From: Micromonospora echinaurantiaca
Lineage (GTDB): Bacteria; Actinomycetota; Actinomycetes; Mycobacteriales; Micromonosporaceae
Reading direction: 5' to 3'
NCBI RefSeq assembly: GCF_900090235.1
Contig: NZ_LT607750.1
Location: 6,529,501 to 6,593,500 of the forward strand
Length of the DNA stretch: 64,000 nt
Below the pieces are notes generated by a model, which saw nothing but the letters and a program-made list of their open reading frames with translations, did no database searches and was not told where the DNA came from. Shown one piece after another: positions 48,554 to 59,291 of this stretch (the first letter of the stretch is position 1; each line of letters starts with the position of its first letter). Both the position numbers and the translations under genes were made by a program.

Positions 48554-49708
48554 GTGACGCACGTGTCCGAGCGCAGCGGCGCAGGAAGCAGCCCGACCGG
48601 CGCCGGCGGCGAGCGCCAGCCGTGGACGGCCGGTGCCGGCCGCCAGGCGCGCAAACGCTCGGTCTCGTACGCGGACGCCGGCGTGTCGATCGAGGCGGGC
48701 GACCGCGCGGTCGAGCTGCTGAAGTCCAAGGTGCGCCAGACCCGGCGGCCCGAGGTGCTGGGTGACCTGGGTGGCTTCGCCGGCCTGTTCCGGCTGGACA
48801 CCAAGAAGTACAAGAACCCGATCCTGGCCTCGTCCACCGACGGCGTGGGCACCAAGCTGGTGATCGCCCAGCAGATGGACATCCACGACACGGTCGGCAT
48901 CGACCTGGTCGCGATGGTCGTCGACGACCTGGTCGCCTGCGGCGCGGAGCCGCTCTTCCTGCTCGACTACATCGCCACCGGCGAGGTCGTGCCGGACAAG
49001 GTCGCCGAGATCGGCGCCGGCATCGCCGACGGCTGCCGGTACGCCGGCTGCGCGCTGCTGGGCGGCGAAACCGCCGAGCACCCGGGCGTGCTCCGGCCGG
49101 ACGAGTACGACATCTCCGCCACCGGCGTCGGCGTGGTGGAGGAGAGCGAGATCCTCAGCCCGGAGCGGGTCGAGGTGGGCGACGTGGTCATCGCGATGCG
49201 CTCCTCCGGCCTGCACTCCAACGGCTACTCGCTGGTCCGGCACGTGCTGCTCGGCGCCGGCCGGATGCGGCTGGACGTGGTGATCGAGGACTTCGGCCGG
49301 CAGCGGACGCTCGGCGAGGAGCTGCTCACCCCGACCAAGATCTACGCGCAGGACTGCCTCAAGCTGATCGCCGAGGCCGAGGTGCGGGCGCTGGCCCACG
49401 TCACCGGCGGCGGCATCCCGGGCAACCTGGTCCGGGTGCTGCCGGAGCACGTGGACGCCGTGGTCAACCGCTCCACCTGGAAGCCGCAGCCGATCTTCGA
49501 CCTGATCCAGGCCAAGGGCCGGATCGAGGACCCGGAGATGGAGGCGACCTTCAACATGGGCGTGGGCATGTTCGCCATCGTGTCGGCGGAGGACGCCGAC
49601 CGCGCGCTGGCCACGCTGACCGGCCGCGGCGTCGACGCCTGGCAGGCCGGCGAGATCATCGAGGGCTCCGGCAACGTGCAGATGATCGGTCACCACACCC
49701 GCGGATGA
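48554..49708 (+). CDS. purM: Phosphoribosylformylglycinamidine cyclo-ligase
   Basis: A 384-residue AIR synthetase from GTG 48554 (GGGGAG upstream). It closes the imidazole ring, turning FGAM into AIR with ATP. The first about 35 residues are an unusual Gly/Ser/Arg-rich extension, and the standard fold begins at SVSYADAGVSIEAGDRAVELL. Motifs: ILASSTDGVGTKLVIA, GIDLVAMVVDDLVACGAEPLFLLDYIATG, GGETAEHPG, GLHSNGYSLVR and HVTGGGIPGNLVRVLP. It is 55 nt after purF, most likely one operon. Confidence 0.97.
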   Translation: MTHVSERSGAGSSPTGAGGERQPWTAGAGRQARKRSVSYADAGVSIEAGDRAVELLKSKVRQTRRPEVLGDLGGFAGLFRLDTKKYKNPILASSTDGVGTKLVIAQQMDIHDTVGIDLVAMVVDDLVACGAEPLFLLDYIATGEVVPDKVAEIGAGIADGCRYAGCALLGGETAEHPGVLRPDEYDISATGVGVVEESEILSPERVEVGDVVIAMRSSGLHSNGYSLVRHVLLGAGRMRLDVVIEDFGRQRTLGEELLTPTKIYAQDCLKLIAEAEVRALAHVTGGGIPGNLVRVLPEHVDAVVNRSTWKPQPIFDLIQAKGRIEDPEMEATFNMGVGMFAIVSAEDADRALATLTGRGVDAWQAGEIIEGSGNVQMIGHHTRG

Positions 49709-49745: not shown

Positions 49746-49775
49746 TTCACCCGAGTGGCCATCGCCGCCTAGCCT
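49746..49775 (+). promoter_or_regulatory. Candidate promoter of the radical SAM RiPP locus
   Basis: TTCACC (49746-49751), an 18-nt spacer and TAGCCT (49770-49775) lie 33 nt before the enzyme's ATG. A TAGNNT -10 is common in actinobacteria. The spacing and sequence are plausible but not strong. Confidence 0.35.
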
Positions 49776-49808
49776 GAAGGGCACCCTCAGGCACAGCGGA
49801 GGAGGGCG

Positions 49809-50939
49809 ATGGCTGCTCGGGGACAGTCGTTCAGCGGAATGCGCGGCCTGGCCGCCGTTCCGTCGTACGTCGTGATGCAGCCCACCACCCTCTGCAACCT
49901 GGACTGCGCGTACTGCTACCTGCCCTTCCGCTCGGCCGATCGGCGGATGCCGGTACCGGTGGCCGAGGCGGTCGCGGCGTCGGTCAACCCGTGGGCGGCG
50001 GCCGGGCGGTTCTCGGTGGTGTGGCACGGCGGTGAGCCGCTGGCCGCCGGCCGGGAGCACCTGGCCGCGCTGTTCGCGCCGTTCGGGCCGGAGGTCGAGC
50101 ACCACGTCCAGACCAACGCCACGCTGATCGACGACGCCTGGTGTGCGTTCTTCGCCGAGCACCGGGTGCGGGTGAGCGTGAGCGTGGACGGGCCGCGGGA
50201 GCGCAACGGCGACCGGGTGACCCGGGTCGGCCGGCCGGCGTACGACCGGATCCTGCGCGGGGTGGCCGCGCTGCGCCGGCACGGCCTGCCGTTCTCGGCG
50301 CTGGCGGTGGTGAGCCGCCCGGAGCCGGGCCTGGCCACCGAGCTGTACGACTACTTCCTCGCGCTCGGCTGCGACGTGCTCGGCATCAACATCGAGGAGA
50401 CCGAGGGGGTCAACACCCGCGACAACTCCCACGACGCCGGGGTGGTGACCGCCTTCTGGGCGGAGCTGGTGGCGGCCTGGCGCCGGGACCCGCGGATCCA
50501 CCTGCGGGAGGTCGAGTGGTCGCTGCGGTACACCGCGGCGGTGCTGGACGGCACCGCTGACGACCTGCTGCCGCGCCGGCTGGACCCGATCCCCACAGTG
50601 GGCCACGACGGCTCGGTGACCGTGCTCTCGCCGGAGCTGGCCGGCTTCACCGACGCCCGGTACGGCGACTTCAGCAGTGGCAACGTGCTGGCCACGCCGC
50701 TGGCCGAGATCCTGGCCGGCGCGGCGGGCACGCCCTGGGTGGGCGAGTTCCTGACCGGCGTGGAGGCGTGCCGCTCGTCCTGCCCCTACTTCGGTTTCTG
50801 TGGCGGGGGTCACGCGGCCAACCGCTACTTCGAGCTGGGGCGTTTTGACGGTACGGAGACCGAGCACTGCCGCAACAGCAAGATCCGCCTACTGGAGGGA
50901 GTGTTGGAGCATGCCCGAGACCACCAGTCACCGGCCTGA
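49809..50939 (+). CDS. amcB: Radical SAM/SPASM peptide maturase, AmcB-like (cyclophane-forming)
   Basis: A 376-residue enzyme starting at ATG 49809 behind GGAGGAGG. The radical SAM [4Fe-4S] site is C29-x3-C33-x2-C36 (TLCNLDCAYCYL), with WHGGEP at about 72-77 as the SAM-binding GGE. The C-terminal SPASM-type region has C321, C325, C331 and C354 (CRSSCPYFGFCGGG...EHC) for auxiliary clusters. A small precursor gene overlaps its last 29 nt. This pair matches, from my knowledge of family names, the AmcB/AmcA RiPP type in which aromatic side chains are linked to the beta-carbon of the residue two positions later. No peptidase or exporter gene is in the window. Confidence 0.82.
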   Translation: MAARGQSFSGMRGLAAVPSYVVMQPTTLCNLDCAYCYLPFRSADRRMPVPVAEAVAASVNPWAAAGRFSVVWHGGEPLAAGREHLAALFAPFGPEVEHHVQTNATLIDDAWCAFFAEHRVRVSVSVDGPRERNGDRVTRVGRPAYDRILRGVAALRRHGLPFSALAVVSRPEPGLATELYDYFLALGCDVLGINIEETEGVNTRDNSHDAGVVTAFWAELVAAWRRDPRIHLREVEWSLRYTAAVLDGTADDLLPRRLDPIPTVGHDGSVTVLSPELAGFTDARYGDFSSGNVLATPLAEILAGAAGTPWVGEFLTGVEACRSSCPYFGFCGGGHAANRYFELGRFDGTETEHCRNSKIRLLEGVLEHARDHQSPA

Positions 50940-51144
50940 GCGCGTGGCGGGTGCCGCCCCGGACGGGGTCGCCGAGCGGGTGCGGGAGGCCGCCCCGGGA
51001 CTCACCGCGCTACTGCACGAGGCCGAGGCCGCGCGACGGCTGCGGGCGGAGGTGTCGGGCGGCGACGGTGCCAGCGCGGTCTGCGCCTGGAACCACTTCG
51101 AGAACATCCCGACGTTCTACAACTGGAACAACCGGCCCCGCTGA
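50911..51144 (+). CDS. amcA: AmcA-like RiPP precursor peptide with four aromatic-X-X motifs
   Basis: A 77-residue peptide from ATG 50911, overlapping the end of the maturase by 29 nt, with GGAGGGAG 9 nt upstream. Residues 1 to about 50 are a leader rich in Ala, Glu and Arg (a helix LTALLHEAEAARRLRAEV). The core is residues 58-77, CAWNHFENIPTFYNWNNRPR. It contains four possible three-residue cyclophane motifs: W60-N-H62, F63-E-N65, F69-Y-N71 and W72-N-N74. Each has an aromatic first residue and a polar third residue, as in known triceptide-type products. The overlap implies tightly coupled production of enzyme and substrate. The core is unlike any ordinary small protein tail. Confidence 0.8.
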   Translation: MPETTSHRPERVAGAAPDGVAERVREAAPGLTALLHEAEAARRLRAEVSGGDGASAVCAWNHFENIPTFYNWNNRPR

Positions 51145-51154
51145 GGCGGACCGG

Positions 51155-51210
51155 GATCAGGGACCTGCCGATCGACCGGAGTCGCCTCCGGCGCGGTCAG
51201 GTCCCTGATC
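51155..51210 (+). terminator. Terminator of the RiPP locus
   Basis: GATCAGGGACCTG (51155-51167) pairs perfectly with 51198-51210, and a smaller CCGGA/TCCGG hairpin sits in the loop. It begins 11 nt after the precursor stop. Confidence 0.8.
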
Positions 51211-51243
51211 GTCGGTCGTGGCGCCGCTCGATGGGCACATGCG

Positions 51244-51288: not shown

Positions 51289-51504
51289 TCAGCGGGTCGG
51301 GCGGACCCAGGTGTCCGGGTCCTCGTCCGCGTGATCCTCATCATCGTCGTCGACATACTCTTTGTAGTCGTCGTCGAAGTTGTGCTCAGACTTACCAGCA
51401 CCCGCCAACTCGCGCTGCAAGGCGGTGAGGTCGGTGTTCGGGGAGTGGTACTTCAACTCCCGGGCCACCTTCGTCTGCTTGGCCTTAGCACGGCCGCGCC
51501 CCAT
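51289..51504 (-). CDS. DUF3073 small acidic protein
   Basis: A 71-residue protein beginning MGRGRAKAKQTKVARELKYHSPNTDL, the hallmark of actinobacterial DUF3073, with a basic first third and an acidic end (DDDYKEYVDDDDEDHADEDPDTW). It is conserved widely in actinobacteria and has no proven function; the charge layout suggests RNA or ribosome association, which is inference. It stands alone, with its own terminator, in a 293-nt spacing from the valine dehydrogenase gene upstream. Confidence 0.92.
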   Translation of the reverse strand: MGRGRAKAKQTKVARELKYHSPNTDLTALQRELAGAGKSEHNFDDDYKEYVDDDDEDHADEDPDTWVRPTR

Positions 51505-51758
51505 GGCTCGACCCCCTCGCACAGAATGCGGGGCAGCCCGAAGGCGGGCCCCGATGACGTCAGGCATCTCTCGTGGCTCTTACGGTACATGGGGATGCCA
51601 CCGTTCGGCACCTCGGGTTACCGTCGACCGGCCCTGCGCGTCGCGGTTATCCGGTCGTCACACAGTGTACCCGGTAAGGAGCGGTGCTGCGAGCACCCAT
51701 GACACCGGACGAATCCCCACGAACCGACCCGATTCTCAGCTTAACGGCGTGCCCCGGT

Positions 51759-52880: not shown

Positions 52881-53050
52881 GGCTTGCTCCTGTGTCGGTG
52901 TGCGTCCTTGTGGGGCGCGGACCTGGTGGGACGCCGGCGGGATGCTGCCGGTGCCGCTGAGCCTAGTATCGGCCGACGCCGTCCGGTCGCCCCAGGCACG
53001 TGGGGGCGGCGCGACGGCGCTCGGGTCCCGATTCGTGGGAGGATCGCGCC

Positions 53051-53890
53051 GTGCCGTCGCTCTTCGCTTCATACCTGCGCGTGTACGAGCCGCTGACCGC
53101 CTTCGACCGGGACCGCCAGTCGTACTGGCGGCGCTACGTCGAACAGGGCCGGGCGGTCGCCCCGGTCGAGGGGCCGGGCCGGCAACGGACGTCGGTGATC
53201 GAGGCGCTCGGCGCCGGGTGGACCCGGCTGCCCGATCCGCCGGACGAGGCGTACGTCCTGGAGACGGACGACACGCTGCTGGTCTGCCCCTGGAACCTGC
53301 GCATCCGGGTGGCCGAGGCGGCGCTGAGCGCCCGCGACGGGGTGCCCCCGGTGCTCGCCGACGCGTTCGTGCCGCCGGTGCTCGCCGGCCAGGCCAAGGC
53401 GGTGGTGGAGGACTGGCGCAGCGGCGCCCGGGTGCTGGAGCACGGCGTGCCGCGGGTGCACGAGCAGGTGGCCACCTGGGGCGTGCCGCTGCGCTGGTTC
53501 GTACTCTTCGAGCCGGCCGAGCGGGACCTGGTCACCCGGCCCGGGCGGCGGGCGCTGCGCTACCGGACGGAGATCTCCAAGGCCCGGCGCCGGTCGTCGC
53601 GGGCGCTGTCCGTGCTGCGCAAGTCGGTCGGCGAGGCGCCGATCACCGAGGCGGTCGAGGAGGCCGCCCGCTGGCTGGAGGAGTTCCACCCGCGCTCGGT
53701 GGTCGAACTGGACTACGGCGGCCTGGTCGAACTGCTCTCCGACGAGACGCTGGCCGCCGACGACTCGCCCGAACTGGTCGCGACGGGTCTGGCCGGGCTG
53801 TCCCGGGGCGAGGCCGAGGAGGCGTCCGCGGCGTACGACAAGCTGGTGGCCCGGTGGCGCGCGGTGCAGTTGCTGGAAAGGTGCAACTGA
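53051..53890 (+). CDS. Conserved actinobacterial protein of unknown function
   Basis: A 279-residue soluble protein from GTG 53051 ([30 protein letters not shown]). Recognisable blocks include [58 protein letters not shown], and an acidic end. No catalytic motif, signal peptide or membrane helix is seen. The gene stands between vdh and bldC and is divergent from vdh. I do not recognise its function; the fairly dense Trp/Arg content suggests a folded, conserved protein rather than a shadow frame. Confidence 0.6.
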
Positions 53891-57953: not shown

Positions 57954-59291
57954 TCAGTGCCGGATCTGCACCCCGGCGTCCGCCAGCGCCCGGATCACCT
58001 GCGCCGACTCGGCGAACCCTATGATCAGCACGGCCTCGGCGCCGAAGTCCTTGATCTCCTTCGCCCCGGCGGTGAAGTCGACCGGCGCGGCCTTGGCGTC
58101 CTCCGGCGGGTCGTAGGTGAGCAGCTTGACCCGGTCGGAGCCGAAGCCGGCCCGCTCCAACTCCTCGCGGACGTTGCCCTGCAGGCCCTCACCGTAGGAG
58201 TCCTTGCGGGCGACCAGAGCGATCTTGCGCGGACCGTCGCGCAGTATCACGTCGGCGAGCGCCCGGCCCTGGAGGCTGTCCGGCGGCGCGGTACGGAAGT
58301 AGAGGCCGTTGTCGTCCACCTCGGTCAGGCTGGCGTCGGTGTTCGACGGGGAGATCATCACCTTGCCGGCCTTCACCACCTCCGGCAGCACGGCCCGGGA
58401 GATGCCCGAACCGCCGGCGCCGATGATGACGTGCACGCCCGCCTCGACGTGGCTGGCCACGGTGGCCTTGGCGATCTCCGGGTTGGTGCCGTCGTCGCCG
58501 TCGATCCAGGTCACCGGCTCGCCGAGCACGCCGCCGGCCGCGTTGATCTCCTTGAGGGCCAGCGCCGCGCCGGCCGCGATCGGCGGGTTGGCCAGGGCCA
58601 GGTCACCCGTCTTCGGCAGCAGGCCGCCCAGCACCAGCGGGGCGTCCGCGGCCTTGCCGCGCTGCTTCTTCGGCTTCGGCGGGGCCTTGCTGCTGGCCGC
58701 CGACTCGTCGCCGGCACCGACGAACTCGGTCTTGCCGTCGTTGAGCTGCTGACCGTCGAAGTGCAGCGTGGCGTAGCTGGCGGTGGCCGGCTCGCCGGCG
58801 TCGGTGAAGCCCGCCCGGGTCAGCGAGACGCTGCGGTACTCGACGTCCTGCCCGTTGCGGGCCAACGCGAGGCAGCTCGCCGGGTCCTCGCAGCGCTGCC
58901 CGCCGTTGGTGACGCCGACGATCTGCTTGGCGATGGCGGCCGGGTCGGTGGTGCCGGCCAACTGGGCGGCCAGCGCGCTGATCACGACCGCGTCGTACGC
59001 CTCGGCGGAGTAGAGGAAGTCGCCCAGCTTCGGGTCCACGGTGCGTAGCCGGTTCTTGAAGTCCTCCGGCAGCGGCGTGAGCGGCGTGGTGCCCTTCATG
59101 CCGTCGACCAGATTGGCCCGCTCCTTCAACTCGGCGGGGTACGAGTTGAGCATGTTGCCGTCGGTCCCGTAGAGGCGCACCTGGTGGGTGGTCGCCTCCT
59201 CGGGCTGGTCGGTCCCGCAGGCGCTGGTAGCGAGCAGGAACGTCGCGCAGGCGGCCAGGGTGGCTGCCCGCGAGGCGCGTGAGATGAGCAT
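57954..59291 (-). CDS. Periplasmic-binding-fold lipoprotein of LivJ type with permuted halves
   Basis: A 445-residue exported lipoprotein (ATSAC lipobox, C25). Residues about 38-185 read like the C-terminal half of a branched-chain amino acid binding protein: VRLYGTDGNMLNSYPAEL, TTPLTPLPEDFKNRL, YSAEAYDAVVISALAAQL, a Cys pair (C134 and C140), YATLHFDG. A Lys/Pro-rich linker (about 200-216, KAPPKPKKQRGK) follows. Residues about 218-445 read like the N-terminal half: PLVLGGLLPKTGDLALANPP, ALALKEINAAGGVLGEPV, DDNGLYFRTAPPDSLQGRAL, VLIIGFAESAQVIRALADAGVQIRH, which ends where the first part would continue. This indicates circular permutation. A terminator follows the stop, and no permease or ATPase gene adjoins it. 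Confidence 0.8.
   Translation of the reverse strand: MLISRASRAATLAACATFLLATSACGTDQPEEATTHQVRLYGTDGNMLNSYPAELKERANLVDGMKGTTPLTPLPEDFKNRLRTVDPKLGDFLYSAEAYDAVVISALAAQLAGTTDPAAIAKQIVGVTNGGQRCEDPASCLALARNGQDVEYRSVSLTRAGFTDAGEPATASYATLHFDGQQLNDGKTEFVGAGDESAASSKAPPKPKKQRGKAADAPLVLGGLLPKTGDLALANPPIAAGAALALKEINAAGGVLGEPVTWIDGDDGTNPEIAKATVASHVEAGVHVIIGAGGSGISRAVLPEVVKAGKVMISPSNTDASLTEVDDNGLYFRTAPPDSLQGRALADVILRDGPRKIALVARKDSYGEGLQGNVREELERAGFGSDRVKLLTYDPPEDAKAAPVDFTAGAKEIKDFGAEAVLIIGFAESAQVIRALADAGVQIRH

Follow-up and report, generated by a model that had tools for sequence, protein, structure and literature searches.

A conserved AmcB/AmcA locus for a predicted cyclophane-type peptide in Micromonosporaceae, with enzyme-fused relatives

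Micromonosporaceae are known for antibiotic production. A locus of Micromonospora echinaurantiaca in which the gene of a radical SAM enzyme overlaps that of its own precursor peptide raises the question of whether the product of such a pair is another antibiotic or has a physiological role in the cells that make it. The DNA analysed (the window) is a stretch of 64,000 nucleotides (contig NZ_LT607750.1 of assembly GCF_900090235.1, forward-strand positions 6,529,501 to 6,593,500), and all coordinates below are positions within it.

The amcB gene (49809..50939, +) encodes a predicted cyclophane-forming radical SAM peptide maturase of 376 aa and is overlapped by 29 nt by amcA (50911..51144, +), which encodes a precursor peptide of 77 aa and starts at an ATG inside amcB in frame +1. 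Positions, peptide length and overlap were all as an earlier sequence-only reading had given them. That reading had also called the enzyme AmcB-like, and profile searches agreed: it scored 522.7 bits against the AmcB model NF041718 (curated cut-off 425), whereas the models for GrrM/OscB (TIGR04261, second best; 234.3 bits, cut-off 310), anaerobic sulfatase maturase (TIGR03942; 103 bits, cut-off 349.45) and mycofactocin maturase (TIGR03962; 35.2 bits, cut-off 265) remained below theirs. AmcA scored 120.1 bits against the group 3a model NF041722, above its cut-off of 65, and 39.3 bits against the group 3b model NF041723, below its cut-off of 65, and its nearest relatives among the matches listed carry the NCBI name AmcA (e.g. 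P0001 at 94% identity). Judged by these scores, the pair is a member of the already curated AmcB/AmcA family, group 3a, and a typical one that nothing in the window sets apart. The family was reportedly founded by Phan and Morinaka in 2022 (ACS Chem Biol).

The description of AmcB as a radical SAM/SPASM enzyme held for its first part only. Pfam recognised PF04055 alone, and the CX3CX2C motif read from the translation (Cys 29, 33 and 36; 49893..49916, +) and the auxiliary-cluster cysteines (Cys 321, 325, 331 and 354; 50769..50870, +) were present as described and invariant in all 100 AmcB sequences aligned from syntenic loci, the latter four also in 52/52 rows of a wider alignment. A full SPASM domain has seven cysteines and two auxiliary clusters. 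The AmcB family of the window conserves four at this end of the protein, which would be enough for one auxiliary cluster and short of a full SPASM domain.

The layout of the two genes was compared over 111 syntenic loci, which represent 111 genomes (the window's own included) with 24 genus codes and in which purM and the DUF3073 gene were both seen in 101 cases and one of the two in 10. The amcA frame was +1 relative to amcB in every locus, its ATG lay 17 to 71 nt before the end of amcB (32 nt in 73/111), and no locus was fused, amcB and amcA being separate genes in the window as well. A GGGAG-like stretch preceded the amcA ATG in 12/12 loci inspected, and the N-terminus of AmcA read MPE in all 10 hand-picked rows of one alignment. 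Programmed frameshifting from amcB into amcA was considered on account of the constant frame and set aside, as an ordinary overlapping ATG explains it. Because both proteins pass curated models, the core is kept while its codons vary synonymously (see below) and the frame is constant in 111/111 loci, amcBA is not a chance arrangement.

AmcA comprises a leader (50911..51075, +) with a helix-like stretch, GLTALLHEAEAAR, and a core, AVCAWNHFENIPTFYNWNNRPR (51076..51141, +). Its tail, CAWNHFENIPTFYNWNNRPR, has the single Cys and the four aromatic-X-X units that the sequence-only reading had noted, so that an AmcA precursor with Omega-X-X motifs lies adjacent to AmcB. The core pattern VCAWNHFENIPTF[Y/F]NWNNRP was found in 109 of the 111 syntenic loci: 92 were identical to the window's AVCAWNHFENIPTFYNWNNRPR, 12 had FFN for FYN, four ended in RPPR and one in RPSR, and the other two loci had group 3b cores. 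A scan of named genomes with the core pattern returned at least 120 stretches, with Micromonosporaceae alone, in 21 genera, among the matches listed; since such a scan selects for the motif, invariance was judged on loci found by AmcB. A motif-bearing frame lay downstream in 112/112 AmcB loci adjoining purM or DUF3073, a count that is partly circular as precursors were recognised by such motifs. Seven of the 141 loci from the AmcB search had no recognised precursor, none of them adjoining purM or DUF3073: L002 and L003 (further radical SAM genes from the genome under study), L020, L028, L314, L315 and L316. Under a looser search, group 1-like precursors appeared at L020 and L028.

The core was far more conserved than the rest of the precursor. 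Over 98 loci with a 3a core (100 were compared, and the two of group 3b were left out of the core comparison), mean pairwise identity was 99.7% for the core, 49% for the last 52 leader residues and 77% for AmcB. The best 21-residue windows in these loci reached 0.937 in AmcB, 0.997 in PurM and 0.637 in the leader, against a mean core identity of 0.997; conservation of the core equals that of the best PurM stretch and is not above it. Among 109 loci, an amino-acid change was seen at 1 of 20 core positions examined and synonymous variation at 14 of 18 non-Trp core codons examined, which indicates that selection acts on the peptide. An RNA-level reason for the conservation was ruled out, as synonymous codons vary and one Arg is written with six codons.

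Four motifs within the core are putative ring sites: W-N-H (motif 1; 51088..51096), F-E-N (motif 2; 51097..51105), F-Y-N (motif 3; 51115..51123) and W-N-N (motif 4; 51124..51132), all on the + strand. The four group 3b cores (G098, G068, G102 and G121) follow the pattern (P/W)RPFEDAFPTFYQF(S/T)N, with W-R-P or P-R-P in place of W-N-H, F-E-D as motif 2, F-Y-Q as motif 3 and F-S/T-N as motif 4. Six reduced cores from fused proteins, described below, retain motifs 3 and 4 only, as F/Y-Y-N (F-Y-G in one, P0129) and W-N/H-N. Across relatives, motif 3 thus occurs as F-F-N, F-Y-Q or Y-Y-N and motif 4 as F-S-N, F-T-N or W-H-N, its third residue being Asn in all. In precursors of group 1 type (22 rows, in which two places are counted twice), F-D-N, W-D-N and F-D-S predominate. 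Motifs 2 to 4 are supported by natural variants, which keep the aromatic residue at position i and mostly N, D or Q at i+2; W-N-H, which is confined to group 3a, has no such support. In P0129, i+2 of motif 3 is Gly, and as this offers no beta carbon to link to, ring 3 cannot be closed there in the usual way.

In triceptides, according to the accessible part of a review (PMC10373908), Trp and Phe are linked to Asn, Lys, Gln, Arg, Asp or Ser. Motifs 2 to 4 fit these acceptors and the His of W-N-H is not among them, so the case for a ring at W-N-H comes from its pattern and its invariance. By analogy with triceptides, the AmcA core may carry three or four putative cyclophanes; for the tryptic core peptide AEVSGGDGASAVCAWNHFENIPTFYNWNNRPR, the computed mass is 3578.617 Da unlinked, 3572.570 Da with three links and 3570.555 Da with four (Cys unmodified). 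An alternative, to which we give somewhat less than an even chance, is that only some motifs (2 to 4, or fewer) are cross-linked and that W-N-H and the Cys serve for binding or metal ligation. Motif 1 is missing in group 3b and in the reduced fused cores, despite an AmcB that is otherwise alike, and this would fit such partial linking, as would the choice of acceptors and the position of the motif 1 Trp between Cys and His. Against it, W-N-H was invariant in 109/109 group 3a loci (found via AmcB, but recognised as 3a by a string that itself includes W-N-H), and new partners keep turning up in the cyclophane class, according to the part of PMC11002830 available.

The pair lies beside purine genes. 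Upstream of amcB are an adenylosuccinate-lyase-type frame, PurS, a glutamine amidotransferase domain, PurL-type AIR-synthase domains, purF and the conserved neighbour purM (48554..49708, +; assigned by TIGR00878 and synteny); downstream of amcA are the conserved DUF3073 gene (51289..51567, -; PF11273), a Glu/Leu/Phe/Val dehydrogenase gene and bldC. Ahead of amcB, CTAGCCTG (49769..49776, +) is a possible -10 region whose columns are 75-90% conserved in an alignment of 111 loci; a promoter scan found no match to the sigma-70 consensus there. The strong terminator that the sequence-only reading had placed after amcA proved to be a long stable hairpin without a T tract (51155..51211, +; -62.3 kcal/mol for the 101-nt fold, z -4.2): an intrinsic-terminator scan after amcA found none, and hairpins with z below -2 occurred downstream of amcA in 63/111 loci compared with 1/60 control stretches inside amcB. 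As that reading had also stated, no exporter or leader peptidase is nearby, in so far as Pfam recognised none in 18 neighbouring frames over about 29 to 63 kb of the window, 17 of them picked by codon composition, a set that does not cover every gene and in which some starts are perhaps wrong. One frame, at 57954-59291, has a periplasmic-binding-protein domain.

Two further conserved stretches were observed in this region. The DNA at 51504-51600 (-), upstream of the likely true start of DUF3073, looks well conserved, with the same reverse-frame string in many relatives; Rfam, run on the whole window at the gathering threshold, gave no match there or elsewhere. A conserved gene without a Pfam match precedes bldC at 53000-53890 (+) and was seen in 37/40 larger loci.

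In the genus of the window, AmcB exceeded the cut-off in 61/61 genomes and an AmcA match was found in 121/121 genomes, one in each. In the GTDB family Micromonosporaceae, AmcB exceeded the cut-off in 158/200 genomes, and fragments at contig ends were found in three more (G102, G117 and G121, with one TGA inside the G121 match); G147, an 86% complete family genome from an otherwise AmcB-positive genus, had no AmcB match. The order sample gave 48/298 over the cut-off, with 2/244 outside the family (G814 and G870, at which a motif search recognised no precursor), and the phylum sample 2/396, both of the window's genus. AmcB is thus rare outside the family, which argues against a general bacterial function, and the amcBA locus is a conserved core locus of Micromonosporaceae.

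Among 40 larger loci, of about 9 to 15.5 kb, DUF3073 adjoined amcBA in 38, some of which were rearranged (L078, L079, L093 and L096). The two exceptions, L075 and L088, are paralogous AmcB genes with group 1-type precursors (the group 1 assignment of precursors having been scored on three other loci). Paralogous AmcB genes with group 1-type precursors (FDNRP.WDN..FDSRP.WDNWNKK and the like) were also observed at other sites in L004-L019, L021, L030, L259 and L261, and several of these loci (e.g. L005-L009) have a small conserved frame, MT.Y.SR, upstream. In L316 (G036), two tandem AmcB-like genes with 34-35% identity to the window's AmcB are preceded by a frame with several W-x-x motifs at its end (RWNQSSWNNAFRDTGTWTNTW).

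AmcB distances followed those of PurM over 100 loci (Mantel r 0.81, with 0/999 permutations as high). On a quick PurM tree, the presence of amcBA needed one change (SH-aLRT 99; 48 present and 19 absent rows), the 67 rows being hand-chosen and the tree itself not distinguishing gain from loss. The absent rows stood for 19 of 42 family genomes in which no AmcB exceeded the cut-off, and one positive locus, L262, was dropped as its stretch held no purM. In an empty-site comparison of 19 AmcB-negative genomes, tblastn on stretches of about 3 to 4 kb with purM detected neither AmcB nor AmcA next to it, and DUF3073 was seen in 2/19. An AmcA search at E up to 1 gave matches in all of 27 AmcB-negative or doubtful genomes, a real core being present only in G102 (4e-5) and G121 (4e-4); the best match among the others had an E of 0.006. 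Since the carriers of amcBA make up one clade of the PurM tree, the other family members sampled lacking the pair, a single gain within Micromonosporaceae, next to purM and the DUF3073 gene, would be the simplest account.

At the same site in G092, with purM before and DUF3073 after, one 413-residue frame (L323:1510-2751) comprised AmcB, a leader-like stretch and CESTGTYYNWNNRSR. A search with this fused protein found 7 proteins that end in a core among the best 120 of 1709. Six carry the reduced core (P0121, which is the G092 protein, P0122, P0125, P0126, P0127 and P0129), and P0208 has a full core on a shortened leader fused to AmcB; a separate search for more full-core fusions turned up P0208 and no other. 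A core-pattern scan of 7 genomes detected the reduced fused core in G092, whose genus-mate G117 had none. On a quick tree, the six reduced fusions and two unfused proteins formed one supported set of eight (SH-aLRT 99; P0125 on a long branch), P0208 lay elsewhere and the fusion label needed three changes.

It could be argued that these fusions are artefacts of assembly or gene calling and say nothing of how the pair works, given that P0121 comes from a 430-contig draft genome (G092) labelled a MAG by NCBI and that P0208 sits on a single 1688-base contig, for which a second copy was looked for and not found. We consider this improbable in view of six fused proteins with 59-100% identity to the query, from several sources (ncbi, lgn and jgi), that fall in one supported set with two unfused proteins, and of an L323 frame with no stop between enzyme and core. 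In the fused side lineage, the core is by sequence the tail of the enzyme, and it is plausible that it is modified in cis and that the product is not released as a free natural product. AlphaFold predicted a good fold for P0122, at a mean pLDDT of 83, with a leader helix spanning 382-394 (mean 90 over 381-390); most of the core tail is below pLDDT 50, so the model does not locate the tail in the active site.

To our knowledge, a precursor fused to its enzyme is known only from borosins. We found no report of a fused radical SAM peptide maturase and precursor in the literature searched, most subscription journals lying outside its reach. In the borosin OphMA, as in the six fusions of AmcB with AmcA, enzyme and precursor core share one polypeptide (PMC11285071, seen in part), but OphMA is a methyltransferase that carries out backbone N-methylation, and the pair of the window is not fused. 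Of the solved folds, ChlB with ChlA leader or precursor (PDB 9gm3 and 9gmc) comes closest to the P0122 model, with 21-22% identity and a TM of 0.65-0.66 normalised to query length. The window's AmcB also matches 9gm3_A weakly in sequence, and ChlB belongs to a separate protein family. GrrM/OscB, XncB and other triceptide enzymes are radical SAM enzymes that make i to i+2 links on Trp/Phe motifs (PMC11002830, in the part available), as AmcB is predicted to do; AmcB scores 234 of 310 on TIGR04261 and has a different precursor. What is new here is the pattern, namely conservation of the core at one site across the family, and the fused relatives; the enzyme and peptide family is already curated.

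Taken together, we propose, with a probability of roughly 0.6, that AmcA receives three or four cyclophanes and has a physiological, probably intracellular, role rather than that of an arms-race antibiotic. Going by its family, AmcB would bind the AmcA leader and, by radical SAM chemistry, link the aromatic residue at position i of each Omega-X-X motif with the side chain at i+2, giving three or four small rings near the C-terminus of AmcA; this chemistry is argued from family membership and the triceptide literature. Once gained, the pair would have been held with an almost unchanged core, and the product may have a fixed physiological partner within the producing family, for instance as a peptide cofactor, regulator or signal. 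The physiological role is suggested by the occurrence of the pair in every genome sampled from the genus, by its descent with PurM, by a core that hardly varies, by the fusions and by the lack of an export gene recognised in the neighbouring frames; the distribution and the near-invariant core fit a fixed physiological partner better than a diversifying antibiotic. Counting against it, a fixed target of any kind, also an external one, would account for an invariant core.

An ordinary secreted triceptide, antibiotic or signal, with its core held by a fixed target and its exporter and leader peptidase elsewhere, is the chief alternative and in our view an unlikely one. Export or cleavage by genes elsewhere in the genome is possible: leader proteases outside the cluster, such as TldD/E, are described in PMC10885120, and darobactin, a related cross-linked peptide, is active against Gram-negative bacteria (PMC9055067), both sources being seen in part. 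A secreted product sits less well with a pair found in every sampled genome of the genus, with its descent alongside PurM at one locus, with the lack of a recognised export or peptidase gene in the 18 neighbouring frames and with a core fused to the enzyme in a side lineage. According to the accessible part of PMC12026744, dynobactin and darobactin are the only peptides with such three-residue cross-links whose activity is well understood. Among the papers listed in the same search of the literature, none dealt with the function of AmcA.

Among the comparable systems are the precursors of PQQ and mycofactocin, conserved ribosomal peptide cores that are made into cofactors with the help of a radical SAM enzyme; AmcB differs in scoring 35 of 265 bits on the mycofactocin maturase model, and no partner enzyme is known for AmcA. 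A stronger form of the physiological reading, slightly less likely still than secretion, is that AmcA 3a falls outside what is usually called a natural product, being instead a ring-stapled peptide factor inside the cell that Micromonosporaceae need, and that the fused proteins cross-link and keep their own tails. If so, fused AmcB-AmcA would be the first case among radical SAM enzymes of what borosins are among methyltransferases, and its tail a protein-borne modified group of a new kind.

With a core fixed across the family, a single site next to purine genes and no export gene recognised in its surroundings, amcBA is a good place to seek a role other than antibiosis for cyclophane peptides, while the fused proteins offer a single-protein system in which such a role may be tested.
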